Assembly (NCBI RefSeq): GCF_900141705.1 | Contig: NZ_FQYM01000003.1 | Location: 1 to 64,000, forward strand | Source: Fibrobacter sp. UWP2 | GTDB taxonomy: Bacteria > Fibrobacterota > Fibrobacteria > Fibrobacterales > Fibrobacteraceae | DNA length: 64,000 nucleotides | Direction of reading: 5' to 3' | Part shown: positions 17,984 through 51,023 of the stretch, in pieces | Layout of the letters: each line of letters begins with the position of its first letter | Position numbering within the stretch: the first letter of the stretch is position 1 | Program-made: the position numbers and the translations under genes | The notes under the pieces: generated by a model | What the model was told of the DNA's origin: nothing | Seen by the model: only the letters and a program-made list of their open reading frames with translations | Database searches by the model: none

Positions 17984-18001
17984 AGGATGAAGGATTAACA
18001 A

Positions 18002-19384
18002 ATGCTTAAACAATATCCTATGCTACGATATGTCCTGCAGAAGGCGTTCTGGTACTTGCTGACCTTCGTCTGCGCAGTGGCACTCAACTTTGCGTTGCCG
18101 CGTCTTGGCGACAACAACCCGGTCGACATCATTATGGGTCAAGCGGGCAAGGGCCTTTCTCCGACTGAAGCCCAGGCGAAGAAGGCCGAACTCCTGAAGT
18201 CCTTCGGCATGGCCGAACTCGACGAACAGGGCAATGTGATTTATGAACCGGAAGTGGACGAGAACGGCCAGATGAAGACTGTTCGCGTCGCGAAACTCGA
18301 CGAGAACGGTGCCCCGGTGATGAAGACTGTCAAGGAAGTGAACGAAGACGGCTCTCCCAAGATGGTTGAACGCCAGAAGGTCGACGAAGCCGGCAACCCG
18401 GTGTTCGAAGAAAAGCCGGTGCTCGATGCCAAGGGCAAGCCTGTGATGGAAAAAGACCCGAAGACCAAGAAGAAGGTCGCGAAGGTCGAACAGGTTCCCG
18501 TCATGGAAACAGTCCAGGCAGAACACCAAGACACCGTCATGGTGGACCAGGCTGTGCTTAAGACCGACCCGAAGCTCTCCTCTGCGCTTTCGCAGTTTGG
18601 CTCCTACATTCTTAACGTGTTCCACGGCGATCTCGGCCGCAGCTTCTCTACGAGTGAGCCTGTCACCGACATCATCAAGAAGTCCCTCCCGTGGACGCTC
18701 CTCATCCAGGCCCCGACCATCATCCTCGGCTGGATCATCGGTAACCTCCTTGGCGCCTTTGCCGCTTACAAGCGCGGCGTGTTTGACAAGGTGTTCTTCC
18801 CGGTGGCCATGTTCCTGAACGGTGTGCCGTTCTTCGTGTTCGGTATGCTTTTGGTGGCCCTTTTCTCCATCACTCTCGGCTGGTTCCCCGCCATGGGCGC
18901 CTACAGCTCCGATATTCCCGAGCTGACGTTCTCCTGGGCCTGCATCAAGAGTGTGGGCTGGTATTACATCCTCCCGTTCTTCTCGGTGTTCCCGATTCTT
19001 CTTTCGGGTCAGGCAACGGGTATGCGCTCCATGTCCATTTACGAACTCGGCACCGACTACATGAAGTACGCCAAGTGGCTCGGCCTTAAGGAAGGCAAGA
19101 TCATTAGCTATGTGTTCCGCAACGCCATGCTCCCGCAGCTCACGGGTCTTGCTCAGAGCCTCGGTGCGATGGTGGGTGGTGCCCTTATTACCGAAATGAT
19201 CTTCTCCTACCCGGGTCTCGGCATGGCGATGCTTAATGCCATTCAAAAGAACGACTACGCAACCATCCAGGGCTGCACCTTGATGATTTCTACTTGCGTG
19301 CTCGTTGCAAACTTTGCAGTTGACGTTTTGATTGCAGTCTTTGACCCGCGTGTCAAGGCCGGTCTCCAGATGGGAGGTAAGTAA
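18002..19384 (+). CDS. ABC transporter permease (OppB/DppB type) with repeat insert
   Basis: An inner-membrane permease of the binding-protein-dependent family. After one N-terminal TM segment (about 12-32) comes the usual periplasmic region, then HGDLGRSFST and five further TM segments. The EAA-type coupling loop is ELGTDYMKYAKWLGLKEGKI (about 350-369). At 460 residues it is far longer than the usual 305-340. The excess is an insert at about residues 71-183, made of roughly 13-residue imperfect repeats of the form [LV]DExGxPV followed by charged residues. It sits 18 bases after the binding protein gene and 2 bases before the second permease. Confidence 0.9.
   Translation: MLKQYPMLRYVLQKAFWYLLTFVCAVALNFALPRLGDNNPVDIIMGQAGKGLSPTEAQAKKAELLKSFGMAELDEQGNVIYEPEVDENGQMKTVRVAKLDENGAPVMKTVKEVNEDGSPKMVERQKVDEAGNPVFEEKPVLDAKGKPVMEKDPKTKKKVAKVEQVPVMETVQAEHQDTVMVDQAVLKTDPKLSSALSQFGSYILNVFHGDLGRSFSTSEPVTDIIKKSLPWTLLIQAPTIILGWIIGNLLGAFAAYKRGVFDKVFFPVAMFLNGVPFFVFGMLLVALFSITLGWFPAMGAYSSDIPELTFSWACIKSVGWYYILPFFSVFPILLSGQATGMRSMSIYELGTDYMKYAKWLGLKEGKIISYVFRNAMLPQLTGLAQSLGAMVGGALITEMIFSYPGLGMAMLNAIQKNDYATIQGCTLMISTCVLVANFAVDVLIAVFDPRVKAGLQMGGK
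18212..18550 (+). repeat. In-frame short-repeat insert within the OppB-type permease
   Basis: It encodes about six degenerate copies of a ~13-residue unit, starting LDEQGNVI, VDENGQMK, LDENGAPV, VNEDGSPK, VDEAGNPV and LDAKGKPV, followed by a lysine-rich stretch and a glutamate/glutamine-rich end. It is placed where ordinary OppB proteins have a short loop between the LGL-type segment and the conserved GDLG motif, on the predicted periplasmic side. Confidence 0.8.
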
Positions 19385-19386
19385 TC

Positions 19387-20232
19387 ATGGGAAAACTCTT
19401 AAGAAACCTTCTCAAGTCCCCGATGTTTGTCATCGGTGTATCGATCTTTGTCCTTTCGCTGTTGATTGCCCTCTTTGGACCGCTCTTCTACAGTGTGGAT
19501 ATTAACGCCCGCGACATCATGGCTGGCCCCTATGCCGGTTCCAGTGCAGACCACCTGCTTGGCACCGACCACCTTGGCCGTGACTATGTGTCCCTTTTGA
19601 TTGCGGGTCTCCGTTCTTCCCTCTACGTCGGGTTTATTGCGGGTATCATCGCGACGACCATCGGCGTGCTCATCGGTTTGTTTGGCGGTTTCCGCGGCGG
19701 CTGGATTGACGAAGTGTTGAACATGCTCACTAACATCTTCATCGTGATTCCGCAGTTCGTGATTCTCGTTCTTATCAGCTCCGCTGTTAAGGATGGCCGC
19801 TCTCTCACCTTGATTGGCCTTATCATCGGTCTCACCGCTTGGAGCTGGTCTGCCCGTGCTGTTCGTGCGCAGGCTTCTTCCCTCCGTAGCCGTGACCACA
19901 TCGCCCTTGCCCGTATCAACGGTGCAAGCACCTTGACCATCGTCATCAAGCATGTGCTCCCGTACCTGCTTTCGTACGTGTTCATGGTGTTCATCATGCA
20001 GGTGTCTTCGGGAATCCTCTCCGAAGCGTCCATCTCCATGATTGGCCTCGGCCCTGTGGATTCCACGAGCCTCGGTATCATTTTGAACCAGGCCAAGGAT
20101 AACGGTGCCCTTTCTGACTCCATTTGGATTGCGTTCATCCCGGCGACCATCGTCATTACGCTTACGGTGTTTGCCCTCTACCTGATTAACACGTCCATGG
20201 AAGGCGTCTTTAACCCGCGTCTGCGCAAGTAA
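19387..20232 (+). CDS. ABC transporter permease (OppC/DppC type)
   Basis: A 281-residue permease of normal family length. Features are an N-terminal TM segment (about 12-34), the periplasmic motif HLLGTDHLGRDYVSLLIAGL (about 56-75), and the coupling helix region VRAQASSLRSRDHIALARIN (about 160-179), followed by GLGPVDSTSLGIIL. It pairs with the upstream OppB-type permease to form the membrane channel. A two-base gap separates the genes, which implies coupled translation. Confidence 0.93.
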   Translation: MGKLLRNLLKSPMFVIGVSIFVLSLLIALFGPLFYSVDINARDIMAGPYAGSSADHLLGTDHLGRDYVSLLIAGLRSSLYVGFIAGIIATTIGVLIGLFGGFRGGWIDEVLNMLTNIFIVIPQFVILVLISSAVKDGRSLTLIGLIIGLTAWSWSARAVRAQASSLRSRDHIALARINGASTLTIVIKHVLPYLLSYVFMVFIMQVSSGILSEASISMIGLGPVDSTSLGIILNQAKDNGALSDSIWIAFIPATIVITLTVFALYLINTSMEGVFNPRLRK

Positions 20233-20242
20233 GAGGTATAAA

Positions 20243-21244
20243 ATGTCTGAAAATGTTTTTGAAGTAGAAAACTTGAGCCTTTATTACCTCGGCCGTTTTG
20301 GCGACAAGACTCACGCAGTGACCAACGTTTCGTTCTCCATGAAGCAGGGCGAAATCCTGGGCATTGCCGGTGAATCGGGCTGCGGTAAGTCCACCTTGGT
20401 GAGCGGCCTTATGGGCATGTGCATCCCGCCGCTCTATCCCGAAGGCAAGAGCGACGTTCGCGTGAAGAACGGCGACAAGATGGAATCCCTTATGAACCGT
20501 TCCATTGAGGATGTTCGCAGGAACGTGCTCGCCCAGAAGGTTTCCATGATCCCGCAGGGCGCGTTTAACGCTCTTAACCCGGTGCGCAAGATCAAGGATA
20601 TTGCTGCCGACGTGATCGCCGCCCACCAGCAGCCCGGCAAGGCTTTGGACCACAAGGAAATTTATGACCGTCTTTGCGACCGTTTCGACTTGTTCGGGAT
20701 GGACACGAAGCGTGTGCTGAACAGCTTCCCGATCCAGCTGACCGCCGGTGAACGCCAGCGTTCAGTGATCGGTATCTCCACCTTGCTCAACCCGCAGATG
20801 GTGATTGCTGACGAACCGACTTCCGCTCTGGACGTTTCGACCCAGAAGGAAGTGATCAAGATGATCTTTGACTTGCTAGACAAGGGCATCTTCAGCACCA
20901 TGATTTTCATTACCCACGAACTTCCGCTGCTGTACCACGTGGCCGACAATATCGCCATCATGTACGCCGGTGAATTCGTGGAAAAGGGTACGGCAGAACA
21001 GGTCGTCAAGGATCCGCGTCATCCGTATACCCAGGCTCTTATGGGCGCCATGCTCAGTACCGAGGCCAGCCAGCGTGGCCGCCACCCGGTGGCTATCGAA
21101 GGTGCTCCTCCGAGCCTCAAGAACAAGATTGTGGGCTGCCGCTTCGCCCCGCGTTGCAGCAAGGCATGCCCGGATTGCAAGAAGAATACCCAGAATCTCC
21201 GCATTGTCGGCGATCGTGACGTGAGGTGCGATTATGCTAAGTGA
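20243..21244 (+). CDS. ABC transporter ATPase (OppD/DppD type)
   Basis: A 333-residue cytoplasmic ATPase. Walker A is GESGCGKSTL (about 47-56). The Q-loop lies near IPQGAFNALNPV. The signature segment reads QLTAGERQRSVIGI, a variant in which LSGGQ is replaced by LTAGE. Walker B is MVIADEPTSALDV. The C-terminus has the oligopeptide-type extension with four cysteines (CRFAPRCSKACPDCKK), which in related ATPases binds an iron-sulfur cluster. The gene overlaps the next ATPase gene by 11 bases. Confidence 0.92.
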   Translation: MSENVFEVENLSLYYLGRFGDKTHAVTNVSFSMKQGEILGIAGESGCGKSTLVSGLMGMCIPPLYPEGKSDVRVKNGDKMESLMNRSIEDVRRNVLAQKVSMIPQGAFNALNPVRKIKDIAADVIAAHQQPGKALDHKEIYDRLCDRFDLFGMDTKRVLNSFPIQLTAGERQRSVIGISTLLNPQMVIADEPTSALDVSTQKEVIKMIFDLLDKGIFSTMIFITHELPLLYHVADNIAIMYAGEFVEKGTAEQVVKDPRHPYTQALMGAMLSTEASQRGRHPVAIEGAPPSLKNKIVGCRFAPRCSKACPDCKKNTQNLRIVGDRDVRCDYAK

Positions 21245-22043
21245 TAAGCCCATTGTGTTTTCTGCCAAGCGCATCAGCAAGGACTTTGGCGCCGGCAAGA
21301 GCTTGAAGACCGCTGTTAAGGATGTTTCCTTTGACATCTATGACGAAGAGTTCATCTCCATCGTGGGTGGCTCGGGTTGCGGCAAGTCCGTGCTCGCCAA
21401 GATCATGCTGGGCCTGTACCAGCCGACTCGCGGCCAGTTCCTTTACCGCGATCACAAGATCAAGAACTTGAAGGACCACTGGAACGAAGTTCAGTCCGTG
21501 TTCCAGGACCCGTTTGGCTGCTTCAACCAGTTCTTCACCATCAGAAGCCAGCTCGAGGACGCCCTCAACATTTTGAAGGTCAAGCCCTCCAAGGAAGAAA
21601 TCCGTCGCCGCGTGGACGAAGGCCTTTTGGCTGTGAACGTGACGCCTGCCGACATCGAAGGCAAGTACCCGTTCGAACTCTCTGGTGGTCAGATGCAGCG
21701 TATGTTGCTCGCCCGTATTTTCGCCCTTCGCCCGAAGGTCTTGATTGCTGACGAAGCGACCTCCATGGTGGACGCCTGTGTGCGCGCCAACATCCTCGAT
21801 TACCTCCGCAAGTTGAAAGACGAGCTGAAGATGACCGTGGTGTTCGTGACTCACGACATTGGCCTTGCCAACTACGTTTCGGACCGTATCTTCATTATGC
21901 ACGACGGCAAGATTGTGAACCAGGGTACTCCGGCAGAAGTGCTGGACAACACCACGGAACCGCATACCTTGCGCCTGCTGGACGACATCCCCGAAGTCCA
22001 CAAGACCGAGTGGATCAAGAACAGCCACAGAAGCAAGAAGTAA
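21234..22043 (+). CDS. ABC transporter ATPase (OppF/DppF type)
   Basis: A 269-residue ATPase, the second nucleotide-binding subunit of the importer. Walker A is GGSGCGKSVLAK (about 44-55), the signature LSGGQMQR (about 146-153) is canonical, and Walker B is VLIADEATSMVD. It lacks the longer C-terminal cysteine region of its partner. The start ATG at 21234 lies inside the end of the upstream gene. It is the last gene of the operon; a terminator follows 43 bases downstream. Confidence 0.92.
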   Translation: MLSDKPIVFSAKRISKDFGAGKSLKTAVKDVSFDIYDEEFISIVGGSGCGKSVLAKIMLGLYQPTRGQFLYRDHKIKNLKDHWNEVQSVFQDPFGCFNQFFTIRSQLEDALNILKVKPSKEEIRRRVDEGLLAVNVTPADIEGKYPFELSGGQMQRMLLARIFALRPKVLIADEATSMVDACVRANILDYLRKLKDELKMTVVFVTHDIGLANYVSDRIFIMHDGKIVNQGTPAEVLDNTTEPHTLRLLDDIPEVHKTEWIKNSHRSKK

Positions 22044-22086
22044 TTCGGTTTCCGGGTCACCTGGAATAAACCAGCTTGTGAAGGAG

Positions 22087-22118
22087 AGCCGCAGCGAACG
22101 ATGCTGCGGCTTTTCTGT
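22087..22118 (+). terminator. Rho-independent terminator of the ABC operon
   Basis: AGCCGCAGC (22087-22095) and GCTGCGGCT (22103-22111) form a perfect 9-bp stem with loop GAACGAT, followed by TTTCTGT. Confidence 0.87.
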
Positions 22119-22120
22119 AT

Positions 22121-22145
22121 ACAGGGAAACGCCGTTGTTTCCTGT
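22121..22145. repeat. Bulged inverted repeat upstream of the GH9 gene
   Basis: ACAGGGAAAC and GTTTCCTGT pair with one bulged G around GCCGTT. It ends about 60 bases before the GH9 start and 50 bases before its -10 box. It could be a second hairpin of the upstream terminator or an operator; nothing decides between these. Confidence 0.4.
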
Positions 22146-22194
22146 AGAAAACGGAATATAATGCTGAATGGCGCCGAGTGGGCGTATTTTAGAG

Positions 22195-22200
22195 TATATT
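22195..22200 (+). promoter_or_regulatory. -10 box of a predicted leaderless promoter (GH9 gene)
   Basis: TATATT ends 6 bases before ATG 22207, so transcription would start at or next to the start codon. No consensus -35 box and no Shine-Dalgarno sequence are seen. Confidence 0.5.
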
Positions 22201-22206
22201 CTAGGC

Positions 22207-24052: not shown

Positions 24053-24084
24053 GAAGGAGCAGGATCTATTTGCCGAGAAAAATA

Positions 24085-24090
24085 TATATT
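24085..24090 (+). promoter_or_regulatory. -10 box of a predicted leaderless promoter
   Basis: TATATT ends 6 bases before ATG 24097; the layout is the same as at the GH9 gene. No Shine-Dalgarno sequence is present. Confidence 0.5.
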
Positions 24091-24096
24091 ACGGAT

Positions 24097-34355: not shown

Positions 34356-35618
34356 TTACAAACCGAATGCCATCGGGAAGCCGGGGTACCAGGTGTTGTT
34401 TTGCTTGTCGTAGGCCTCGAATCCGCCGACGCCTGCCAGTGCCCAGTAGTGCCAAGAAACATCGTACATCTCTGCCGCCTCGATGGTGGTTTGCGCCCAC
34501 TTGGCCCTCATCTTGTCAGAGGGACCCTGCTTGCCGCAGCCGCCATATTGACTTGTGACGCTGAATTCGCCCATGTTCATGGGGATGTTCCCGCCGTTCA
34601 CGTCGGGGTAGAGCTTTTTGGCCAGCGCCACGTAGTTTTTCATGTCGGTCTTGGCGGTGTTGGCATAGGCGTCGTCACCTTTGCAGGCGTAGCCGTGACC
34701 TTGGTGTGAATAAGTGTACGGTTCGTAGTAGTGGCCGCTGAAAATGATGTTGCCGTCCTTGGGGAGCTTGAGCGCGCCGAGGTCGCCAAATTTAGCAGCA
34801 TGGTGGGCTTCGAACATAATCGTCTTGCCTGGGGCTGCAGCGCGGATCGCGTCGTAGCCGGTCATCATCACGTCGTTCAGAATATCCGTGTTCACAAAAG
34901 TCGGCTCGTTCAGGATGTCCCATACAAGCATGGAGTCGGGGAAGTTCAGGGCTTCGGCCTTGGCGGCGACCTGCGACCAGATTGCGGCAAAGTGTTGCTT
35001 TTCTTTAGCGTAATAGTCAGGGTTCGTGGTGGCGTGGTTGCCGGCGTACATGATTTCGTGGTACCAGTGGAAACTCACGACTACGGCGAGCCCGGCGTCA
35101 ATGGCAAGCTTGATGTCGTCCATCACGCCGTTGAGGCGGGCCGGGTTCACTTCGTGGGTCTCGGGGTTGGAGTTGTGCTGCCACCTTACGGGGATACGCA
35201 CGGAGTTGAAGCCGACGGATTTTACCAACTGGAAGTACTCGTCTTTGATAGGGTTGTTCCAGCTGCTGTCCAAGCGGTCGGCGCAGCCGTAGTTGTACTG
35301 CTTGGACGGCATGTTGTTTAGGTAGGACGAATCGGCGGGGACGAGCGGTACATAGCTGTCGGTCTTTTCGGCGTCCAAATCGTCCTTGAGGGTTCCACAG
35401 GTGTAGTACGAGGCGCCATCCCAGGCGTTGCCAAGGTTGATGCCCTTGCCCAGGCGCTTGTTCATGGCACGTCCCTTGGAATAGTCGACGGGTTCGGCGG
35501 AGGAATCCTCGGTAGAGGAACCGTTGTCGGTCGTCTCGGCTGCAGTAGGCTTGCTGTCTTCGGAACAGGCGACCAAGAGGAGCCCTAGGGTTATGACGGT
35601 AAGGAACTTCGCTTTCAT
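34356..35618 (-). CDS. Endoglucanase lipoprotein, glycoside hydrolase family 5
   Basis: A 420-residue cellulase with lipobox LVAC (Cys 18) and a Ser/Thr/Glu linker (about 20-45). The GH5 barrel starts at RLGKGINLGNAWDG. The acid/base glutamate is in WDILNEPTF (Glu 238) and the nucleophile in MNMGEFSVT (Glu 351); RIPVRWQ and SFHWYHE are also GH5-like. It is retaining and expected to cut beta-1,4-glucan at the cell surface or in the periplasm. The start at 35618 begins the lipoprotein signal and has GAGG five bases upstream; the longer frame adds a non-signal stretch. Confidence 0.92.
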   Translation of the reverse strand: MKAKFLTVITLGLLLVACSEDSKPTAAETTDNGSSTEDSSAEPVDYSKGRAMNKRLGKGINLGNAWDGASYYTCGTLKDDLDAEKTDSYVPLVPADSSYLNNMPSKQYNYGCADRLDSSWNNPIKDEYFQLVKSVGFNSVRIPVRWQHNSNPETHEVNPARLNGVMDDIKLAIDAGLAVVVSFHWYHEIMYAGNHATTNPDYYAKEKQHFAAIWSQVAAKAEALNFPDSMLVWDILNEPTFVNTDILNDVMMTGYDAIRAAAPGKTIMFEAHHAAKFGDLGALKLPKDGNIIFSGHYYEPYTYSHQGHGYACKGDDAYANTAKTDMKNYVALAKKLYPDVNGGNIPMNMGEFSVTSQYGGCGKQGPSDKMRAKWAQTTIEAAEMYDVSWHYWALAGVGGFEAYDKQNNTWYPGFPMAFGL

Positions 35619-35826
35619 AAAAACCTCGACAAACATGTATTTAGTTTCTGTAAACAAAAGTACTTATTTTTGCCTTTCTGTATACAGAATAAAAAAAATA
35701 AAGTGTTTACAAGAGAAAACTCAAAAAAACAGAAAAATGACTCAAAAATGGGTGAATTGGTCAAAAAAAAGCTTTGTTTGAGTCCAAGTTCTTTTTGGAA
35801 TTCGATACAGAACCGCAAAAACAATT

Positions 35827-35866: not shown

Positions 35867-36610
35867 ATGAATGGAAATTTCAAAAAAGCCATTTGGAAGT
35901 GTGCCTTGGGGGCGCTACTTCTTGTTTCGACTTCTTTTGCTGGCTACGGCATTAGCGACTACCGCGACCGTGACCAAGCCCGTTTTATCACCAAGGAAGG
36001 TAAACCGTTCCGCCCCGACAAGGATGTGGTCAGCGTTGTGATGCGTGAAGCCATTCCGCGTGGTGGTGGCTATACTTACCAGTACCCGCGTGAAAACCCT
36101 GAACCGGTGCTCACCGATAAGTATGCCATGGAAGGTGCTCTTTCCATGGAAATTGAACTTATCGCCAGCGATTATTCTGGTGTGGCTATTTGTATTGCCG
36201 GTTCTGTGGACTTGACCCCGTACCTCGAAGAGGGCGTCCTGGAATTCTGGATCCGTGGCGAAAAGGGCGGCGAAAACGCCTTGTTCGTGCTTGTGGACGA
36301 CGGTGTCAAGAGCGGCGGCGAATCCCTGCAGGTCAAGCTCCGTTCCAAGAGCTTGGGTGAAATTACAACCGACTGGACCCATTTCAGCATCCCGCTCAAG
36401 CTCTTTGGCATGACCGGTGTGTACTGGGATGCCAAGAATACCCGCGAAGTGATGCTACCGTTCTCCTGGTCGAACTTCAAGGGCTTCCGTCTTGAAGTCC
36501 GTAAGGACGAAAACGAATCCTTCAAGGTCTGGATTGACGACGTTGTCATCAAGAAACATGGCAAGCCTTATGAAGGTCCGGCCAACTATCCGTTCCGTAA
36601 CGAGATTTAA
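35867..36610 (+). CDS. Secreted CBM11-like/jelly-roll protein, first gene of the outer-membrane operon
   Basis: A 247-residue exported protein with signal peptide (about 1-25). The rest reads as a single beta-sandwich: LSMEIELIASDYSGVAICI, VLEFWIRGEKGGENALFVLV, TDWTHFSIPLKLFG and FKVWIDDVVIKKHG. This strand pattern, including the closing IDDVVI, is that of galactose-binding-like carbohydrate-binding modules, nearest by eye to CBM11. No catalytic domain is attached, so it would be a stand-alone binding protein. It is followed 19 bases later by the first of three outer-membrane barrel genes. Confidence 0.68.
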   Translation: MNGNFKKAIWKCALGALLLVSTSFAGYGISDYRDRDQARFITKEGKPFRPDKDVVSVVMREAIPRGGGYTYQYPRENPEPVLTDKYAMEGALSMEIELIASDYSGVAICIAGSVDLTPYLEEGVLEFWIRGEKGGENALFVLVDDGVKSGGESLQVKLRSKSLGEITTDWTHFSIPLKLFGMTGVYWDAKNTREVMLPFSWSNFKGFRLEVRKDENESFKVWIDDVVIKKHGKPYEGPANYPFRNEI

Positions 36611-36629
36611 GAGGGTATAAGAGGATTTT

Positions 36630-38879
36630 ATGCAAAAAACAGTAACATCGATTCTTCTTGCATCTTGCATTGGAGTAGCCTGGGCTTTGCCCCCCCAAGT
36701 GCAGCTTGATTCTATTCACGCCTCCTTGGATACCCTTTCTGGAAACATGGAATCTACCTTGATGGGCAAGGACGACCTTCCCCTGGCGGTCTCCGGCTAC
36801 ATGGCATTCCGCCTCAAGAACTTCCATTATTCCGAAGAGAGCCCCTGGGTCCAGAACGACCGAGCTCGCACCGCTGTCGACGCCGTCTTGAACGTGAACG
36901 TCGTCGCCATGCCGAACTCCTACATGACCCTCTGGTCGTCCATGTCGTTCCCCTTCGACCTGAGCGGTTTGTATTCCAACTACCTCGGTTCACAGCCGAC
37001 GGGCGTCGAAACGCATGACCAGCGCGTGCTGTTCGACCACTCTACGGACTACCACAGTTCCACGATCAACGAAGAAATGAACTTTGGCGTGGACATCCGC
37101 GCGGGCGTCTTTGGCGCCTATGTGACCGCCGGTGGCGTGATTTGGGCGAACGCTTCCCCGCTTACCATGTGGGAGCGCGAAACTATGCCGCGCTTCGCTT
37201 GGCAGTACGAACTGTTCGAAGACGAAAAGACGGTGAGTACCTATTATAAGGAGAAGGTCTTTAAGCCTGTGAAGGAAGGCGGCCGCGCCTTCTGGACGAA
37301 CCGTTCCTTTGGTGGTGTGTTCATGAACGTGTACCAGTTGCCGTTCAACATGAAGGCGCAGTTCATGGTTTCCCAGCCGGCCGATGCCGACATGGGTACT
37401 CGTGACGGTCTTCGTATGTACGGTGGCCAGCCGGGCGAACTCGAAATGTCCGGTACCTACGACATGCGCGGTTCCGTGTACCATGGTCGTGTTGCCAAGG
37501 ACAAAATCATGGACAACCTGACTGTCGGTTTGAACTACATGGGAGTCGTGTTTGACAATGCCATTATTTACGAACCGGAATTCCGTACGCAGTGGCTGGT
37601 CTACTCCGATGTGGGACCGACCCTTTTGAATACCCATGTGGCCTCCGTGGATGTTAGGGGCAACATCACTCCGAAACTTTACTTGATGGCCGATGTTGCC
37701 TTGAGCATGACCGACTCTGTGCGTTTCTACCGCACAAGCGATGCCGCGGGTTATGTCGATACCAGCGCCAGCACTGGTTATACCAAGGACGCTTACAAGA
37801 ACGAAATGAATACCCCGCAGGTGGGCGTTTACGTGAAGGCGCAGAGCAAGTACTTGGAAGGCTGGCCCATGACTCTCGAAGCCATCTATCTCCCCAAGGA
37901 ATTCTACTCCCCGTACTCCTTGGGCAACCCGTCCCGTTTCCCGAGCTGGCGCAAGGACGAATCTTACCTGAACGGCGGTTCGCTGCGCTACACCCCGAAC
38001 ATGGCCGGCCTCAACTTCAAGTTGGAACCGACCTTCAACCGCGGTTACTTTGACTTGCAGTACGGCCAGCACCGTCAAATTGAAGACGGCGATGACGTCA
38101 TTTACTTTAACTATCGTTTGAATGGCCGCAACATGTGGGAAGGCACGAGCTCCTGGACCAAGCACAAACCGTTGTTCATTGCCGACTCCGGTAACGCCGA
38201 CAACGCCGCCTACATTGCCCGTACGGGTGTCCAGCTGGGTTCCGAAGAAGGCATCAAGCAGTATCGTCAAAGAGGCGGTCTGTATGGCGGTACTTGGGAA
38301 CTCTGGGAATCCTTTGTGGCTTACGAGGATGCCGATCAGATTTCTTCGGGCGAAGTTCCGTCCCACGCCAAGTGGTCCAGCTACCTCTCCTTTATGGGCG
38401 GCTACGACATTGGCGGCTGGTTTGGTACCGACCGCACCATCATGATGACCCTCTACGCAGCACTCTCCGGTCTTTCGACTTCGTTTGCCCCGATTGCCTA
38501 CAGCGAGTCCCAGGACGACATGCTCATGTGGAGCTTCTACACGCAGTTTGAACCGGCTGTCGCCGTGACGCCGAAGTTCCACATGGTGGGTATCCTCGGT
38601 ATGGAAACCTTCCGCGCTGAGAACGCCTACACGACCGTCGCTGCCGTTTCGACCGTTGCTAAAAAATCCGACTTTGCGGGCACCTTTGGAACGAACTACT
38701 TCCAGAAGGCTCCGATCAACTACTTGGAAACCGCCATCGGCCTTGGCTTTGACTGGGACTTTGCCGATCGCGCCGGTTTGCACGTTCGCTATAAGTACAT
38801 GACCCATTCTGATGAATTGATTTCGGACAATGACTGGCATTCCCATTACATTGCTGCAGAAACCAAGGTCTGGTTCTAA
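36630..38879 (+). CDS. Outer-membrane beta-barrel protein, paralogue 1
   Basis: A 749-residue exported protein: signal peptide (about 1-19), a short amphipathic helix (LDSIHASLDTLSGNMEST), then alternating hydrophobic/polar strands rich in Tyr, Trp and Gly. It ends in a C-terminal phenylalanine (AETKVWF), as outer-membrane barrels do. The segment GVIWANASPLTMWERE resembles the TPLTL region of the two proteins encoded downstream. The family could not be named. Position in the operon suggests a surface role in binding or transporting polysaccharide; that is inference. Codon use is like that of highly expressed genes. Confidence 0.72.
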   Translation: MQKTVTSILLASCIGVAWALPPQVQLDSIHASLDTLSGNMESTLMGKDDLPLAVSGYMAFRLKNFHYSEESPWVQNDRARTAVDAVLNVNVVAMPNSYMTLWSSMSFPFDLSGLYSNYLGSQPTGVETHDQRVLFDHSTDYHSSTINEEMNFGVDIRAGVFGAYVTAGGVIWANASPLTMWERETMPRFAWQYELFEDEKTVSTYYKEKVFKPVKEGGRAFWTNRSFGGVFMNVYQLPFNMKAQFMVSQPADADMGTRDGLRMYGGQPGELEMSGTYDMRGSVYHGRVAKDKIMDNLTVGLNYMGVVFDNAIIYEPEFRTQWLVYSDVGPTLLNTHVASVDVRGNITPKLYLMADVALSMTDSVRFYRTSDAAGYVDTSASTGYTKDAYKNEMNTPQVGVYVKAQSKYLEGWPMTLEAIYLPKEFYSPYSLGNPSRFPSWRKDESYLNGGSLRYTPNMAGLNFKLEPTFNRGYFDLQYGQHRQIEDGDDVIYFNYRLNGRNMWEGTSSWTKHKPLFIADSGNADNAAYIARTGVQLGSEEGIKQYRQRGGLYGGTWELWESFVAYEDADQISSGEVPSHAKWSSYLSFMGGYDIGGWFGTDRTIMMTLYAALSGLSTSFAPIAYSESQDDMLMWSFYTQFEPAVAVTPKFHMVGILGMETFRAENAYTTVAAVSTVAKKSDFAGTFGTNYFQKAPINYLETAIGLGFDWDFADRAGLHVRYKYMTHSDELISDNDWHSHYIAAETKVWF

Positions 38880-38895
38880 GAGGGGGTAGCTGAAA

Positions 38896-41157
38896 ATGAA
38901 TATGAACATGAAAAAATCTTTGATTGCTCTCCTTGCTTCTACAGTGGCGGCATCTGCTACGCCGGTGTTTGAAAACCAGAATCTGCTCGAAAGCAAGGTC
39001 GATTCTATTAACGCCAAGCGCGGCGTGGAATTCGGCGGCTCTATTCGCGGAGTTGCCGAGGCCTCCTACTTTAGTACCGATCAGGACCCGTCCGCCATCG
39101 ACAAAATGCCCGATGTAGAGAAGGACGAATTTGTGACGGCCGACCTCGACTTCCACTTCCGCCCTTACGAAAATGTCCGCGCCAACGTGATGATGCGCTT
39201 GGAAGCCGGCATGCAGGAATACTTCGCCTCTGCGGCAAAGAGCATCTCGGTGGAATGGATTAACGTCGAAGGCAACGTTGGCAAGTCGTTCTACTGGATT
39301 GTGGGTGACTTCCGCCAGCAATACACACCGCTCACCCTCTTTTTGCCGGGTGTCGACGTGATGTATGAACCCTTGATTTTTGCCCGTCAGCGTCACATGG
39401 CCGAAAAGTCCCAGCTGATTGAAGGCAACCAGCGCAACCTGCAAGGTGCGAACTTCCAGTTCCGCCACACCATCAATCCGATGGTGGGCGAGCTTCGTGC
39501 CGAGGCCTTGCTGGCGCGCTTGAACCGCACTGCGGTTTTGGACCTCTCCGGTGCCGAAGGCAATATCTTGCCGAACGAAGAAATCCTGGGAGCCTCGCAG
39601 GCTTCGAACATGGATAAGTGGCTTGCCGCCGGAAACTTTGAATTGTTCCCGGTGAACAAGAACCTTTATGTGGGTGCCACCGGCATGTACATCTTCGATA
39701 ACGAGGATTCCTTCTCGTATACCGAACGTCATCCGGGTAATAACGTGATGGCTCAGAACCCTGTCACGGGTGAGTACGACGGTTACTACGAACGTCAAGC
39801 CATTAACCCCACCGAGCCCGACGCCCAGCAGACTACGGTCATCAGCGCCCGCTTGGGTGGCGATATCGCCGGCTTTATGGGAAACAAAAACCTGACTTTG
39901 GATGTGACCGGTGAATTCGCCATGTCCATGGACAAGGTATACTCTCACGCGATAAATCCTGCTGTTGACGAAACCGGAGCCCCGGTTTTGGACGCCGAAG
40001 GCAACGCGACCTTTATCGACGAAGTCTCTGACGATAACTTGAACGGCATGGCTATTTTGGCCAACATCAACGCCGGCTACAAAACTAGCCTTTGGGGAGC
40101 CCAATTGGCGGTCAATGTCATTTTCAATGACAGCAACTGGTTCAACAACTTGGCCCAGTCCCCGAGCTTCTTTGCCCAGCGCATCCTCAATACCGATATG
40201 GATGGCGGAACGGTAAAGTACGGCGTCCATGCTCCGCTCTATAGCACCTTTGGCGCTCTCTACAGCTTTGCCCCGAAGTTCTCTCCGGTGGCGACCTCCC
40301 TGGGTACCGACGACGGCGCCTTCCAGGACGGCCAAACCGACAGCTACAACATTGCGAACTACAACAAGAATTCCTACACGACAAACGTTTATACGCGCAA
40401 TCAACTTGCCTTGCTCTCCATGCTCGCTGACCCGGCTCTTCAAATGGCCCTCCCGAATGGCCTTGCCACGGCGAACCGCGTGGGTGCCCAGGCGAACGTG
40501 ATTGGCTCCTTCAAGGACTTTGCCGAGGTCCAGGGCTTGTTCACTTTCTTGAACCAGGTCGACCCGCTGATTGGTTTCAAGTCGGTCAACTACATGGAAT
40601 TTGGTGGTGGCGCCAAGGTCGACATTTTCAAGGCCATTGGGTTCTCCAAGCCTCTTGAAATTTCGGGATCCTACAAACGTTCTGTTAACAAGTCCGACTT
40701 GGAAGCCGGAGGCTCGGGTGAACTCACTAGCGACTTCATCAATGCCGGCCTTTATGTTCAGTACTTACCTCGCTTGGGATTCACGGCTGGCTTCCAGATG
40801 ATCAATACTGAATATAACGATCTTCAGGCGGCTATTTCTAATCAAATGGCTCCGCTCATGAAGGGTAAGCAAATGCAATGGATGGTCGGCTTTGACTACT
40901 CCATCGAAAACAATGCATGGCTTGCTTTGAACTTGGGCACCATCAACGTGAGCAACGAGTACAACACCTCGGCTGTGGTTGCCGAATACAATGCGAGCAA
41001 CGCCGAGGACCCGTCCAAGGCGAAAGTGCTAAGTGCTGCTACAAAGAACGCCCTCTACAACCTGCCGGTCTACTACGATGTGGCAACGGATAATGGCAAG
41101 TACAAGCATGAGTTCAGCCAGTTTATCATTGAAGCTTCCCTTAACGTGGAATTTTAA
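38896..41157 (+). CDS. Outer-membrane beta-barrel protein, paralogue 2
   Basis: A 753-residue protein with signal peptide (about 1-22), a short helix (NLLESKVDSINAKRG), and barrel-like strands ending in a C-terminal Phe (SLNVEF). Residues around 136-185 (QQYTPLTLFLPGVDVMYEPL, then ARQRHMAEKSQLIEGNQRNL) align with the third protein. It starts 16 bases after the preceding gene, after a GGGGG-type ribosome site. Function unknown; probably surface-exposed. Confidence 0.72.
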   Translation: MNMNMKKSLIALLASTVAASATPVFENQNLLESKVDSINAKRGVEFGGSIRGVAEASYFSTDQDPSAIDKMPDVEKDEFVTADLDFHFRPYENVRANVMMRLEAGMQEYFASAAKSISVEWINVEGNVGKSFYWIVGDFRQQYTPLTLFLPGVDVMYEPLIFARQRHMAEKSQLIEGNQRNLQGANFQFRHTINPMVGELRAEALLARLNRTAVLDLSGAEGNILPNEEILGASQASNMDKWLAAGNFELFPVNKNLYVGATGMYIFDNEDSFSYTERHPGNNVMAQNPVTGEYDGYYERQAINPTEPDAQQTTVISARLGGDIAGFMGNKNLTLDVTGEFAMSMDKVYSHAINPAVDETGAPVLDAEGNATFIDEVSDDNLNGMAILANINAGYKTSLWGAQLAVNVIFNDSNWFNNLAQSPSFFAQRILNTDMDGGTVKYGVHAPLYSTFGALYSFAPKFSPVATSLGTDDGAFQDGQTDSYNIANYNKNSYTTNVYTRNQLALLSMLADPALQMALPNGLATANRVGAQANVIGSFKDFAEVQGLFTFLNQVDPLIGFKSVNYMEFGGGAKVDIFKAIGFSKPLEISGSYKRSVNKSDLEAGGSGELTSDFINAGLYVQYLPRLGFTAGFQMINTEYNDLQAAISNQMAPLMKGKQMQWMVGFDYSIENNAWLALNLGTINVSNEYNTSAVVAEYNASNAEDPSKAKVLSAATKNALYNLPVYYDVATDNGKYKHEFSQFIIEASLNVEF

Positions 41158-41172
41158 AGGGAGGATGTTAGC

Positions 41173-43371
41173 ATGAATTTCAATATGAAAAATCGCACAA
41201 TCGCTCTCACTTCTGCAGTCTTGTTCTCTGCCGCTGCGGCTTTTGCTGCTGGCGCCCAGGACTCGGTTGTAAAAGAACAGAAGTCCCTCCTGCAAAAGCT
41301 GGATTCTCTCCAGGAGTCGGTGCTGGGTCTCAAGCTGAACGGAACGGCAAAGGCCGGGGCGGCAGTCTCGATGGCCAAGTCCAGCCAGTTTAGCGATGAT
41401 TCGCCAACGGACGAAACGCAGGCTTATTCCGATGTGAACCTCATGATGACCGCTCGCCCCAGTAGCGAGTCCATGGTCACCTTGCAGCTTCGCTTGCACA
41501 AGGATTGGCAGAATGCCTTTGACGAGAACAACAATCCGGTCATTGGGCACTGGTTCAGCTACGACGGTTCTATTTTGAACAAGCACCTGGACTTCAATTT
41601 GGGTTACATGCGTGTTGGCTTTACCCCGCTTACCCTCAACGTTCCGCAAAACTTCTTGCTGCAGGAACCGGAAGTGTTCGCTCAAAAGCGTGTTGAGGCA
41701 TTGGCCCAGCGCAATTTGGATACGACCTCCCGCCGTTTGCTGCAAGGTGTGAATGCCGATTACCACAGCGGCAAGCTTGGCCCGATGGACGATATCCACG
41801 CCCAGTTGACCGGAGCCCGTCTCCGCAACGTGGCCAAAAAGACAGACCTGTTGTTCTTTGACTTCGACTGGTCCGACCGCTATTTCTATGGTGCCCGCCT
41901 CGGTGCCGGTGCTTTTGGGGCAAGCCTCGGTGTGAACTACACCGATGTGTTTGACCGCGTAAAGACCCGTCGCTCCCACGGCCTTGAAGCCGGTGACACT
42001 GTCTACTACGAAGATAACTCTGTCTTGTCTTTTGAGCTCGGTTATGATTCCAAGGAGATGCTGTCGACCTTGCCGGTCACGTTTGGTTTGAACGGTGAAT
42101 TCGCCATGTCCAATTGGGAAGCCAACCGTGATTACTACGGAACCGAAAAGAAATCCCAGTACAAGGTGGCCGAAGGCACGTATATCAATGCCGACGGCGA
42201 CCTGACCTCTACGGTGTACGTGAGCACGGCTCCCTTGGTGGCAGACACTTATTACAACGAAGATGTTGCTGACGAAGATGGGACGAGCTTCTACGTGACT
42301 CCGTATGTGAATCTCGATATTGCCGGCATTGCCGGAGCCTTGAAGTTCACCTACCTCAAGACCGAAGAGAAGTTCTGGTCCGAAATGGCTTCTGCTCCGA
42401 ACTTCCGCGGCGGTTCTGTGGTGCTGAACGCCAACGCCCTCTACAGCAACGACATTTATTCGACCGCTGTAAACACATTCGGCATGTCGAGCCTCGAAAA
42501 TCTCTATATGTCTGTGTACAATTCGAATCCGCTCAACGTCACAAACATTATGACGTCTCAGTCCCTGGTGGGCGCCCTCTCCAATACGGCTGAATCCCAG
42601 TATCTGTATTCGAAGGTGTACAACAACTACAAAAACGCCCACTTCTACCGCAATGGCTACGATGCCGGTACCATCAAGAAACTGGAAATGCAAGAAAACG
42701 TCCTCTTGGCTATAGACCCGTCGGTGAACATGGCTTTGCCGTTTGGTCTTGCCACGCCGGACCGCAACGGCTTCAACCTGTCGTTGAATCTCAAGTGGAA
42801 TGACGCTGTGACCTTTGACGCCTACTTTGCCCAAATCAAGTGGGACGGCGCCGATGATACCTTTATGGAATACGCCGCAGGCGGATCCATTGACATCGGC
42901 CAGCTGGTGAACATTGGTCGTTCCTTGGTGTTCCAAGGCTCTTATGACCATAGCGAAGAAGACGCGTTCATGAAGCGCAAGAGCGACCGCCTTATGGCTG
43001 GTGTTTCTGCCGAAATTTGGGGACCGATCAGCTTCCTCGGTGGCTACCAGATGTACCAAAAGCAGTTTGGCGAAGGCTTGTGGCGGATTTCCAACGGTGC
43101 GCTGGATCTCAACCTGGTCAAGGCCGAAGAGACCATGCTCCTGGCTGGCCCGCGTGTGAAAATTGCTCCGAATTCCTACGTTTCTGTTCAATACGGTTTG
43201 TTGACCGACAAGCTTACGTTCAATACAGTGGAGTATAGCCCAGCACTCGACGAATCGGGTAACGTGATGTACGACGAGTTTGGAAACGAGCTTCGCGTCG
43301 GCAAGCCTGGTAAGGGTTCGCTCGCCATAGATAAGAATGTAATCATTGCCGATGTAACGGTTAATTTCTAA
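41173..43371 (+). CDS. Outer-membrane beta-barrel protein, paralogue 3
   Basis: A 732-residue protein: signal peptide (about 1-26), a heptad-like helix (LLQKLDSLQESVLGLKLNGT), and barrel strands ending in Phe (DVTVNF). The block MRVGFTPLTLNVPQNFLLQE plus AQRNLDTTSRRLLQGVNAD matches the equivalent block of the second barrel, so the two are clearly paralogous. It starts 15 bases after the second barrel gene, with GGGAGGA as ribosome site. Function unknown. Confidence 0.72.
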   Translation: MNFNMKNRTIALTSAVLFSAAAAFAAGAQDSVVKEQKSLLQKLDSLQESVLGLKLNGTAKAGAAVSMAKSSQFSDDSPTDETQAYSDVNLMMTARPSSESMVTLQLRLHKDWQNAFDENNNPVIGHWFSYDGSILNKHLDFNLGYMRVGFTPLTLNVPQNFLLQEPEVFAQKRVEALAQRNLDTTSRRLLQGVNADYHSGKLGPMDDIHAQLTGARLRNVAKKTDLLFFDFDWSDRYFYGARLGAGAFGASLGVNYTDVFDRVKTRRSHGLEAGDTVYYEDNSVLSFELGYDSKEMLSTLPVTFGLNGEFAMSNWEANRDYYGTEKKSQYKVAEGTYINADGDLTSTVYVSTAPLVADTYYNEDVADEDGTSFYVTPYVNLDIAGIAGALKFTYLKTEEKFWSEMASAPNFRGGSVVLNANALYSNDIYSTAVNTFGMSSLENLYMSVYNSNPLNVTNIMTSQSLVGALSNTAESQYLYSKVYNNYKNAHFYRNGYDAGTIKKLEMQENVLLAIDPSVNMALPFGLATPDRNGFNLSLNLKWNDAVTFDAYFAQIKWDGADDTFMEYAAGGSIDIGQLVNIGRSLVFQGSYDHSEEDAFMKRKSDRLMAGVSAEIWGPISFLGGYQMYQKQFGEGLWRISNGALDLNLVKAEETMLLAGPRVKIAPNSYVSVQYGLLTDKLTFNTVEYSPALDESGNVMYDEFGNELRVGKPGKGSLAIDKNVIIADVTVNF

Positions 43372-43383
43372 GAGGTACGTACA

Positions 43384-44283
43384 ATGAAACTTCTTAACAA
43401 ATACTTGATTTCTGTTGCGGCAATTTCTATGGTTGCTTGCTCTTCGATGGATGTGGAATACTCCGAGGCTGTCGAAGAAAACTTCCCCGATGATTTTGAC
43501 CATGCCGTTTACATGCAGTTGCATCCGGAACTGGTCAGCTTGCAGGTCCGTGATTACGTCAACACCTACAATGCCGAGGCCAAGACGAAATTGACAACGG
43601 AACAAATCAGTGCCGATGTCGATTCGTTCCATGCCAATTTGGACCAGATCCACCAGATTTATGCTGACCCCAATTTGGGTGGGTTCTCTGAAGCACAATG
43701 GGATTCCATTTGGCTTCCGGTGGTATCAGAGAAAACGACTTGCGGTAACAAGTTTACGGTTTTGAACCTGCAGCAGCTTGTGGCCGGTGAAGGCGATGCC
43801 GTCGACACAGTCAAGATCAAGTTGCTTGACCCCATTACCATTACACCCGAAGGGGCGACTTCTCCTGATTCCATTGTTTCTGTAAAGGGTGCCGTTGATT
43901 CTGCCGGAACCCTCAAGGAATACACCATGGGTGATTCTATTTGGGTGATGTCCGGAAAGAACATGGGAACGTCTGTTGTGGATTCGGCCACTTGTGTGAC
44001 CAAGGTGGACACGGTCCCCTCGACCGGTATTCCTACGGTGACTAAGAACTACCTGGAGAAGTTCAACTTTGTTGATACTAAAGACGACCTGACCAGGCTG
44101 AAGAAGATTCCGCTTGACACCATGGCCTTTAGCATCCAGTACATTCTGTTTGGTCGTGACAATGGTTGGGCTTACCGCAAGTGCAAGGAAGACGAGGCGT
44201 CGAACCCGGCCATTACCGAAACGTACCCGGTTACTAAACTTTATTGCGTTGATGAAGCCGGCGTTGTCCGCGAAATCAAGTAA
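43384..44283 (+). CDS. Lipoprotein of the outer-membrane operon
   Basis: A 299-residue predicted lipoprotein with lipobox MVAC (Cys 19). The N-terminal part is acidic and helical (FDHAVYMQLHPELVSLQVRD). The middle has a beta-rich region, and six cysteines overall suggest disulfides. No family recognised. It starts 12 bases after the third barrel gene and is followed 12 bases later by the GH18-like gene. An accessory role at the inner face of the outer membrane is possible. Confidence 0.65.
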   Translation: MKLLNKYLISVAAISMVACSSMDVEYSEAVEENFPDDFDHAVYMQLHPELVSLQVRDYVNTYNAEAKTKLTTEQISADVDSFHANLDQIHQIYADPNLGGFSEAQWDSIWLPVVSEKTTCGNKFTVLNLQQLVAGEGDAVDTVKIKLLDPITITPEGATSPDSIVSVKGAVDSAGTLKEYTMGDSIWVMSGKNMGTSVVDSATCVTKVDTVPSTGIPTVTKNYLEKFNFVDTKDDLTRLKKIPLDTMAFSIQYILFGRDNGWAYRKCKEDEASNPAITETYPVTKLYCVDEAGVVREIK

Positions 44284-44295
44284 GGCGAGGTTGTT

Positions 44296-45354
44296 ATGAA
44301 TATGAAAGTAATTGCATTAGCTTTGACTTTGGGTATGGCTGTTTCTGCACAGGCTGCCGCCGACAAAATCGTGGGCTACTATCCGTATTGGAGCCAGTAC
44401 TCCCAGTTCTATCCCAAGGATATCCGTTACAACCTCGTGACCAACATTCACTATGCGAACTTGGTTCCGAGTGAAGACGGCTCGGTCGCCTTTGCCGACG
44501 AAAACGATGCCGAGAACTTTAAGGAACTCGTCCGCCTCACCAAGGAGAACAACGTCAAGTTGGTGGTCTCTGTGGGTGGCGCCGAAGCCGAGGGCACGTT
44601 AAAGACTATCGCCACTTCCGAAGAAGTTTTGCCGACGTTTGTTTCGAACCTCAGCAGTTGGATTTCTACGAATGGCGGCGATGGTGTGGAACTCGATTGG
44701 CAGAACCTCACGGGCGAAGATGCCGAGGCCTACGCCAAGATGGTCTCTGCTCTGGTCGACGGCATGTCGGGTTCGATTGTGACGGCTGCGGTTTACCCCG
44801 ATGCCGGTCTTGACGGCTATACCGCCGAAGCTCTGAACCGCCTTACCTATGTGGACGTGTTCATGGCCGACAAGATGACCGAAGAATCCTCGACCTTGGT
44901 TCCTAACCAGGGTGCCGAAATTGTCCAGCAGGCTTTGAATGCTGTCGCAGAGAAGGGTGTTCAAAAGGATCTGTTGGTCCCGGTAATCTACCTTTACGGC
45001 AAGTCCTTCATGGGCGCGACCGGATTTGGCTCCGCACACCAGGGAACGGGTAGCGGCAACGAAGGTTATCTCTCCTATGCCGAGTTGATGGGCAAGTTCA
45101 ACACTCCTGACTACAAGGTGACTTTCGATGAATCCAGCAAGTCTGAACTTGCCGTGAGTGCTTCCGAAGCGATTGTGTTCATGGGCATCCCCTCTGTGAA
45201 GGCCGTGGCCGAACAGGTGAAGGGTGACGGCATGGGGGGCGTGGCCGTTTATGACCTCTCCCAGGACCATCACGAACCGATTGTGTCCCTTTTGGTGACC
45301 ATCGGTTTGCAGATTCGCCCCGACATGGATTACAAGCCCAAGAAGAAAAAGTAA
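44296..45354 (+). CDS. GH18-like secreted protein with altered catalytic motif
   Basis: A 352-residue exported protein with signal peptide (about 1-20). It looks like a GH18 (chitinase-type) barrel: IVGYYPYWSQYSQFYP at the start, KLVVSVGGAEAEGTL (the SxGG motif), then the active-site strand. That strand reads DGVELDWQ (129-136), whereas active GH18 enzymes have DxxDxDxE; the catalytic Glu is Gln 136 (codon CAG, 44701-44703) and the second Asp is Glu 132. Such changes are known from chitinase-like lectins, so a binding role is more likely than hydrolysis. It is the last gene of the operon and ends in a lysine tail; a terminator follows. Confidence 0.8.
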   Translation: MNMKVIALALTLGMAVSAQAAADKIVGYYPYWSQYSQFYPKDIRYNLVTNIHYANLVPSEDGSVAFADENDAENFKELVRLTKENNVKLVVSVGGAEAEGTLKTIATSEEVLPTFVSNLSSWISTNGGDGVELDWQNLTGEDAEAYAKMVSALVDGMSGSIVTAAVYPDAGLDGYTAEALNRLTYVDVFMADKMTEESSTLVPNQGAEIVQQALNAVAEKGVQKDLLVPVIYLYGKSFMGATGFGSAHQGTGSGNEGYLSYAELMGKFNTPDYKVTFDESSKSELAVSASEAIVFMGIPSVKAVAEQVKGDGMGGVAVYDLSQDHHEPIVSLLVTIGLQIRPDMDYKPKKKK

Positions 45355-45380
45355 TTTTAGCTTGTCTAGGAACTTTGAAA

Positions 45381-45410
45381 AGCCTTCCTCGCAACGGGGA
45401 AGGCTTTTTT
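45381..45410 (+). terminator. Rho-independent terminator of the outer-membrane operon
   Basis: AGCCTTCC (45381-45388) and GGAAGGCT (45398-45405) form a perfect 8-bp stem with a 9-base loop, followed by TTTTT. Confidence 0.87.
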
Positions 45411-48783: not shown

Positions 48784-48856
48784 AAAAACTCCTGATTTTT
48801 TACTATAAGATAATTTATTATGTCAAAAATGAATTTTAGGGGACCTTTTTTTCTGT

Positions 48857-50986: not shown

Positions 50987-50993
50987 AATAGTG

Positions 50994-50999
50994 AAAATA
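50994..50999 (-). promoter_or_regulatory. -10 box of a predicted leaderless promoter (GH8 gene)
   Basis: On the minus strand TATTTT ends 7 bases before the ATG at 50986. There is no Shine-Dalgarno sequence before that ATG. Confidence 0.45.
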
Positions 51000-51004
51000 G
51001 ATTT

Positions 51005-51023
51005 CCCCAAAAGGCTTTTGGGG
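51005..51023. promoter_or_regulatory. 19-bp palindrome, candidate operator
   Basis: CCCCAAAAG (51005-51013) and CTTTTGGGG (51015-51023) form a perfect inverted repeat around one central base. It lies where the -35 region of the GH8 promoter would be, in a divergent intergenic region. Confidence 0.45.

Follow-up and report, generated by a model that had tools for sequence, protein, structure and literature searches.

Fibrobacter succinogenes is a leading rumen cellulose degrader without cellulosomes. It is not settled how fragments of cellulose cross its outer membrane. Publications on strain S85 describe the mechanism of cellodextrin transport as unknown, and one model that has been proposed lets cellulose chains into the periplasm. 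An earlier note on a contig of Fibrobacter sp. UWP2 (NZ_FQYM01000003.1), of which we analysed a stretch of 64,000 nucleotides (the window), had proposed that six consecutive genes may encode an undescribed outer-membrane system for gripping or importing glucan, built from non-catalytic parts. Candidate genes for the passage across the outer membrane can now be named.

The six-gene operon proved to be real. All six open reading frames were confirmed on the plus strand at the coordinates the earlier note gave (Table 1), consecutive frames are separated by only 19, 16, 15, 12 and 12 bases, and a single strong terminator closes the 3′ end. In a scan for promoters and terminators, sites within the operon were not in excess. 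The divergent GH5 cellulase is the usual upstream neighbour in the genus, occupying the same position in nearly all relatives.

Table 1. Features of the operon and its surroundings in the window
Feature	Position	Strand	Description
Dpp/Opp-type ABC importer, five genes (SBP_bac_5, 2 permeases, 2 ATPases)	16055..22043	+	family matches; outside operon
GH5 cellulase, divergent	34356..35657	-	PF00150
CBM30 protein	35867..36610	+	247 aa; signal peptide; PF21582, 61 bits
OMP1, beta-barrel protein	36630..38879	+	749 aa; barrel predicted by AF2
OMP2, beta-barrel protein	38896..41157	+	753 aa; ~22 strands, N-terminal helix and no plug domain predicted by AF2
OMP3, beta-barrel protein	41173..43371	+	732 aa; OMP2 paralogue
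Lipoprotein	43384..44283	+	299 aa; conserved lipobox; no family
GH18-fold pseudoenzyme	44296..45354	+	352 aa; PF00704, 115 bits; Lys-rich tail
Intrinsic terminator	45377..45409	+	hairpin -22.1 kcal/mol, z -6.1, then Ts (U tail)

A lack of conservation in related genomes had been set beforehand as a refuting result; instead, conservation of the gene set was very strong. The order CBM30-OMP1-OMP2-OMP3-lipoprotein-GH18 is complete in 67 of the 77 named GTDB loci, where the median gaps between genes are 9-15 bases, and the remainder are mostly cut by contig ends. Chance is excluded as an explanation: gene order and spacing recur throughout these 67 loci, whose OMP1 proteins share 45-86% identity with that of the window. 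Across Fibrobacterota, OMP1 is present in 145 of 168 genomes, OMP2 in 146/168 and the CBM30 protein in 147/168, nearly always together. The presence or absence of OMP1 and the CBM30 protein agrees in 162 of the 168 (Fisher p = 3e-19, a value that ignores kinship), and the six exceptions come from fragmentary genomes or from loci at contig ends. The operon is thus part of an outer-membrane gene set conserved in most of the phylum, and the candidate genes are single-copy and phylum-wide.

All three barrels have the N-terminal helix, (S/T)PLT motif and C-terminal Phe previously ascribed to them, and these features are conserved. OMP2 and OMP3 are paralogous, as had been proposed (profile-profile E = 5.7e-96), and form separate clades in the tree. 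Common ancestry of OMP1 with this pair is unsupported, the profile-profile comparison giving no clear relation. AF2 models OMP1 as a barrel (pLDDT 72.6, pTM 0.74) and OMP2 as a barrel of ~22 strands with an N-terminal helix and no plug (pLDDT 78.3, pTM 0.77), the predicted strand number being higher in OMP1.

Judged by their sequences, the barrels appear to belong to no described family. None of the three matched a family in Pfam or NCBIfam, and when profiles of OMP1 and OMP2 were searched against PDB sequences, no match reached significance, none being at 0.1 or better; the sugar porins LamB and OprB were likewise unmatched in Pfam and PDB sequence searches. Foldseek searches with the OMP1 and OMP2 models returned generic large barrels alone, all at TM < 0.55 and none allowing a family to be assigned. 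These matches included TonB-dependent transporters, OprC, AlgE, ushers, Mtr, chitoporin and maltoporin, with no sugar channel scoring above the generic barrels. Two Fibrobacter proteins, FSU_2404 and FSU_0230, have been named among the radial-oligomer PopA barrels, which have 16 strands (PMC12228718) and a radial oligomer loop. OMP1 and OMP2 resemble these as large outer-membrane barrels of the same organism, but are encoded at other loci, have ~22 or more predicted strands in single-chain models, on which this distinction is drawn, and gave no sequence match in the PDB.

Barrels encoded with surface glycan-binding proteins, near glycanases and for a polysaccharide, recall the Sus systems and PULs of Bacteroidota, with their SusC-SusD pairs and SGBPs. 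The operon's barrels are unrelated to those of the Sus systems. The TonB plug (PF07715) is absent from all three in Pfam, the genome's four plug domains all lie on other contigs, and SusD (PF07980) is absent from the whole genome, the operon lipoprotein having no Pfam match of any kind. The set holds no SusC/SusD pair, as the earlier note had stated, and its drive would come from an ABC importer rather than from TonB. The six proteins also contain none of the PA14, TPR or OmpA domains of the Fibro-slime/TPR/OmpA adhesion complexes of F. succinogenes.

The first protein, previously called CBM11-like, is instead a CBM30 protein, its match to PF21582 (61 bits) lying well above the curated cut-off of 27. 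Its closest solved structures are those of CtCBM30 (1wmx/2c24), and it carries neither a lipobox nor a T9SS tail. The last gene was rightly described as encoding a GH18-like pseudoenzyme. The motif that reads DxxDxDxE in active chitinases is DGVELDWQ in the window, with the catalytic Glu replaced by Gln, and among the operon's GH18 orthologues this position is Q, I, V, L, G or D and in none E. The lipoprotein is fast-evolving, with a lipobox of the MVAC/LxAC type kept among orthologues.

The operon corresponds to Fisuc_1525-1530 of S85, as judged from the order of the genes, their families and the run of six successive locus numbers. The CBM30 protein is equivalent by gene order to Fisuc_1525, a CBM30 protein according to the literature, and the GH18 protein to Fisuc_1530 (FSU_2012, CBP1/CBP-9), for which cellulose binding has been reported. 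In the literature searched, these two appear as separate proteins and the intervening barrels and lipoprotein go unmentioned; no paper in the literature searched by locus tag and guessed accession names the barrels. The operon places three unstudied barrels beside two cellulose-binding proteins that have been known for a long time. "Undescribed" suits the barrels and the set as a system but not the end genes. Expression of Fisuc_1530 is high and stable, FSU_2012 being slightly lower, not higher, on cellulose, and Fisuc_1525 was detected on all substrates.

With such partners, the barrels might simply anchor the CBM30 and GH18-lectin proteins that keep the cell attached to cellulose, and play no part in transport. 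Close attachment is known for the genus, and this arrangement would suit both the reported cellulose binding of the GH18 protein and the non-catalytic nature of the proteins of the Fibrobacter operon. Two to three distinct large barrels would, however, make a costly anchor, Fisuc_1525 and Fisuc_1530 were detected mainly in the extracellular medium, and deeper clusters with an ABC importer and GH94 (below) suggest uptake. We consider a scaffold without transport possible but unlikely.

Loci containing OMP1-OMP2 fall into type A (OMP1-OMP2-Cel51A) and type B (the operon kind of the window), which are supported sister groups in trees. In deeper families of Fibrobacterota, the CBM30 protein encoded directly 3′ of OMP1-OMP2 is mostly a Cel51A-like protein of ~1050 aa combining CBM30, CBM11 and GH51, and the window's CBM30 protein shares 38% identity with the first of the CBM30 modules in a Cel51A-like protein. 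Cel51A itself, or endoglucanase F (Fisuc_3111, CBM30-CBM30-CBM11-GH51), shares the operon's CBM30 family but is encoded alone in Fibrobacter, whereas the operon keeps one CBM30 without the enzyme. The description "built from non-catalytic parts" holds for the window's operon but not for the ancestral-looking arrangement of other Fibrobacterota, where a cellulase is part of the set.

Among 30 deeper-family loci, a Dpp-type ABC importer adjoins OMP1-OMP2 in 17 and a GH94 phosphorylase in 7. This importer is orthologous to that of the window, with identities of 33-78%, of which the binding protein has the lowest. Within Fibrobacter, the importer is loosely linked to the operon, at 15-23 kb, in five genomes including UWP2, and in most genomes it lies on a different contig or far away. 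The deeper-family importer and GH94 data come from the type A clade, and the association is carried over to the window's type B operon by homology, with some help from the loose linkage in the five Fibrobacter genomes.

Conserved in most of the phylum and, in distant relatives, encoded next to a cellulase, an importer for sugars and an enzyme that splits cellodextrins, the barrels are good candidates for the missing gate through which cellulose fragments enter the cell. From this genomic linkage, we judge the chances to be slightly better than even that the module is TonB-independent, binds cellulose and admits cello-oligosaccharides for the ABC importer. This fits the proposal of gripping or importing glucan, import being backed by the deeper-family ABC importer, CBM30/CBM11/GH51 and GH94 neighbours; a physical complex, the substrate and the inward direction of transport are what we infer. 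The operon's products would hold cellulose at the cell surface and let in the soluble fragments released from it. Glucan chains would be bound by the CBM30 protein and by the GH18 of CBP1 type, which is catalytically dead. OMP1 and OMP2, together with OMP3 as a lineage-specific duplicate, would let cello-oligosaccharides through the outer membrane and may form a single complex, and the lipoprotein would be a small accessory. Hand-over to the periplasmic binding protein and the Dpp-type importer, rather than TonB, would drive uptake, with the importer in the window (16055..22043) the likely inner-membrane partner.

This putative logic of passive outer-membrane channel, periplasmic binding protein and ABC importer resembles that of maltoporin and chitoporin, but the operon's barrels have ~22 or more predicted strands and ~750 aa, come as two to three different barrels per operon without a LamB/OprB match, and are accompanied by CBM and GH-fold partners. 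A bolder version, which we hold to be doubtful, would make OMP1 and OMP2 (with OMP3) two new barrel families in one hetero-oligomeric machine, anciently fixed in Fibrobacterota and TonB-free. CBM30 and the dead GH18 would capture long glucan chains or cellodextrins, and the machine would draw them into the periplasm. Such a machine, if true, would be a third way to eat cellulose, beside cellulosomes and Sus-type systems.

The same loci could also be read in the outward direction, the barrels carrying the CBM30 protein (or CBM30-GH51), and perhaps GH18, across the outer membrane for secretion or surface display. OMP1-OMP2 are always partnered by a CBM30 protein, which may or may not carry a catalytic domain, and the one in the window has no T9SS tail. 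Pilus ushers are among the top Foldseek matches of OMP2, but with a TM of only ~0.3 they do no better than other big barrels. The GH51 homologue of Fibrobacter is encoded away from any barrel, and a secretion channel would leave the linkage to importer and phosphorylase unexplained. We regard export as improbable.

Cellulose might also be a secondary ligand and the true one an amino-sugar polymer such as chitin, or another beta-1,4-glycan, which we consider very improbable. Some Fibrobacterota are chitin specialists, but in the lineage of the window the GH18 protein is catalytically dead and a reported cellulose binder, and CBM30 and GH51 point to glucan. In one other family, type B clusters have GH20 and two intact GH18 genes directly after them, so some lineages may use the system on a substrate other than cellulose.

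The forward strand of the window carries six ORFs encoding, in order, a CBM30 protein, three outer-membrane β-barrels (OMP1, OMP2 and OMP3; 749, 753 and 732 aa), a lipoprotein and a GH18 pseudoenzyme, with intergenic gaps of 12-19 bases and a strong intrinsic terminator 3′ of the last gene. The first product matches PF21582, and its nearest solved structure is CtCBM30. The sixth has a GH18 fold (PF00704), with DGVELDWQ in place of the DxxDxDxE motif; the catalytic Glu is gone from every copy of the operon. A Lys-rich tail (KPKKKK), conserved across the genus, ends this protein. OMP2 and OMP3 are paralogous and OMP1 is separate from both. Pfam and NCBIfam models gave zero matches to the three barrels or the lipoprotein, and OMP1 and OMP2 profiles matched nothing among PDB sequences.

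Coordinates of the operon, its neighbors and features at related loci
Feature	Sequence	Position	Strand
Dpp-type importer	window	16055-22043	
Dpp-type importer and GH9	window	16055-23943	
DUF4832 and DUF4874 protein	window	24070-25791	
PorZ-like protein	window	28318-30546	
Six-gene operon	window	35867-45354	+
KPKKKK tail	window	45340-45351	
Intrinsic terminator	window	45377-45409	
GH5 and GH8 pair	window	46555-51010	
Type B barrel cluster, then GH20 and two GH18 (catalytic motifs intact)	locus L035	11735-16470	
OMP1-OMP2 fusion	locus L059 (also L149)	~12236	

This outer-membrane system is real, ancient and phylum-wide. Using a profile of OMP1 to scan the species genomes of GTDB, we found 77 named loci, all from Fibrobacterota; no relative was found outside the phylum, though the scan requires short exact motif matches, which distant relatives could lack and so escape it. 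All six genes keep their order and strand in 67 of the 77, nearly all others being truncated by contig ends, and median gaps across conserved loci are 9-15 bases. These loci span Fibrobacteraceae and termite-gut Fibrimonadaceae. Among 168 Fibrobacterota genomes, OMP1 is present in 145, OMP2 in 146 and CBM30 in 147. OMP1 and CBM30 are jointly present in 143 and jointly absent in 19 (Fisher p 3e-19, uncorrected for relatedness); they disagree in six cases, all explained by an incomplete genome or a contig end. All three are missing from four compact genomes of one genus and from one entire family.

The invariant core is OMP1, OMP2 and a CBM30 protein. In other families, OMP1-OMP2 is followed by a CBM30 protein, usually a CBM30-CBM11-GH51-like protein of ~1050 aa, often with a lipobox; in one family the partner is a CBM30/CBM11 protein with no enzyme domain. 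In the window genome, the large protein has a homolog (47% identity) that stands alone on another contig; it has two CBM30 modules followed by CBM11, the architecture of Cel51A (Fisuc_3111) in F. succinogenes S85.

In the OMP1 tree, two groups have support. Loci of type A have Cel51A-like partners; those of type B begin with the CBM30 protein and carry OMP3 in addition. In their own phylogeny, OMP2 and OMP3 each track the type B loci. Because two genomes (G033 and G036) carry both types, these are paralogous or long-diverged systems. At some type B loci outside Fibrobacteraceae, a GH20 and two intact-motif GH18 proteins come next; this arrangement, seen at L035, hints that the barrel system also exists in a chitin-linked form. 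Our guess is that the operon's dead GH18 derived from such a chitinase.

AlphaFold2 models OMP1 (pLDDT 72.6, pTM 0.74) and OMP2 (pLDDT 78.3, pTM 0.77) as barrels with moderate confidence. The OMP2 barrel is predicted to have ~22 strands and an N-terminal helix, and it lacks a plug. Foldseek searches with both models returned generic barrels only. Conservation peaks after the (S/T)PLT motif, at mature residues 141-220 in OMP1 (aromatic-rich, low pLDDT) and at 101-200 in OMP2, which also has a similarly conserved loop at 400-440; these stretches are candidate ligand or partner sites. In part of the genus (loci L019-L023, L031, L033 and L034), the signal peptide of OMP1 is followed by an extra stretch of ~100 residues rich in Ala, Glu, Pro and Ser, which the window's OMP1 lacks. 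One MAG merges OMP1 and OMP2 into a single 1635-aa ORF, with stop codons and the final OMP1 strand deleted, possibly through assembly error.

A Dpp-type ABC importer (at least three genes) lies beside OMP1 in 17 of 30 deep loci examined, 33-78% identical to the window importer (binding protein lowest), and a GH94 phosphorylase occurs at 7 of the 30. In Fibrobacter the importer is mostly unlinked, but in five genomes, including the window's, it lies 15-23 kb from the operon. Repeated linkage of the core with importer and intracellular phosphorylase argues for uptake of β-1,4-glucan fragments, for which we infer direction, substrate and complex formation. The CBM30 protein and dead GH18 would hold substrate at the cell surface. 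The barrels may instead serve in anchoring or secretion. TonB is unlikely to drive barrels that carry no plug, and TonB plug domains number only four genome-wide. The window genome has no SusD, and the system falls outside Sus-type systems on their membership tests; in its proposed working it resembles a glycan-uptake module.

The system is already partly known through its end genes; its barrels belong to no described family. In S85, Fisuc_1525 (FSU_2007) is a CBM30-only protein and Fisuc_1530 (FSU_2012, CBP-9) a GH18 with reported cellulose binding, spanning exactly six consecutive locus numbers, in agreement with the window operon. The primary source for that binding is reportedly the Mitsumori 1996 CBP1 paper. 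In proteomes, Fisuc_1525 was detected on all substrates, and both proteins were mainly in the extracellular medium; Fisuc_1530 expression is high and stable. Searching the literature by locus tag, we found the barrels, Fisuc_1526-1528, not named. Nearby, Fisuc_1523 is a GH5.

The importer and GH9 flank the window operon on one side and the GH5 and GH8 pair on the other; by published locus numbers, S85 has its importer, GH5 and GH8 elsewhere, at FSU_1680-1691. The DUF4832 and DUF4874 protein adjoins the GH9 cellulase, and the PorZ-like protein bears a T9SS sorting tail of the same kind as nearby cellulases.
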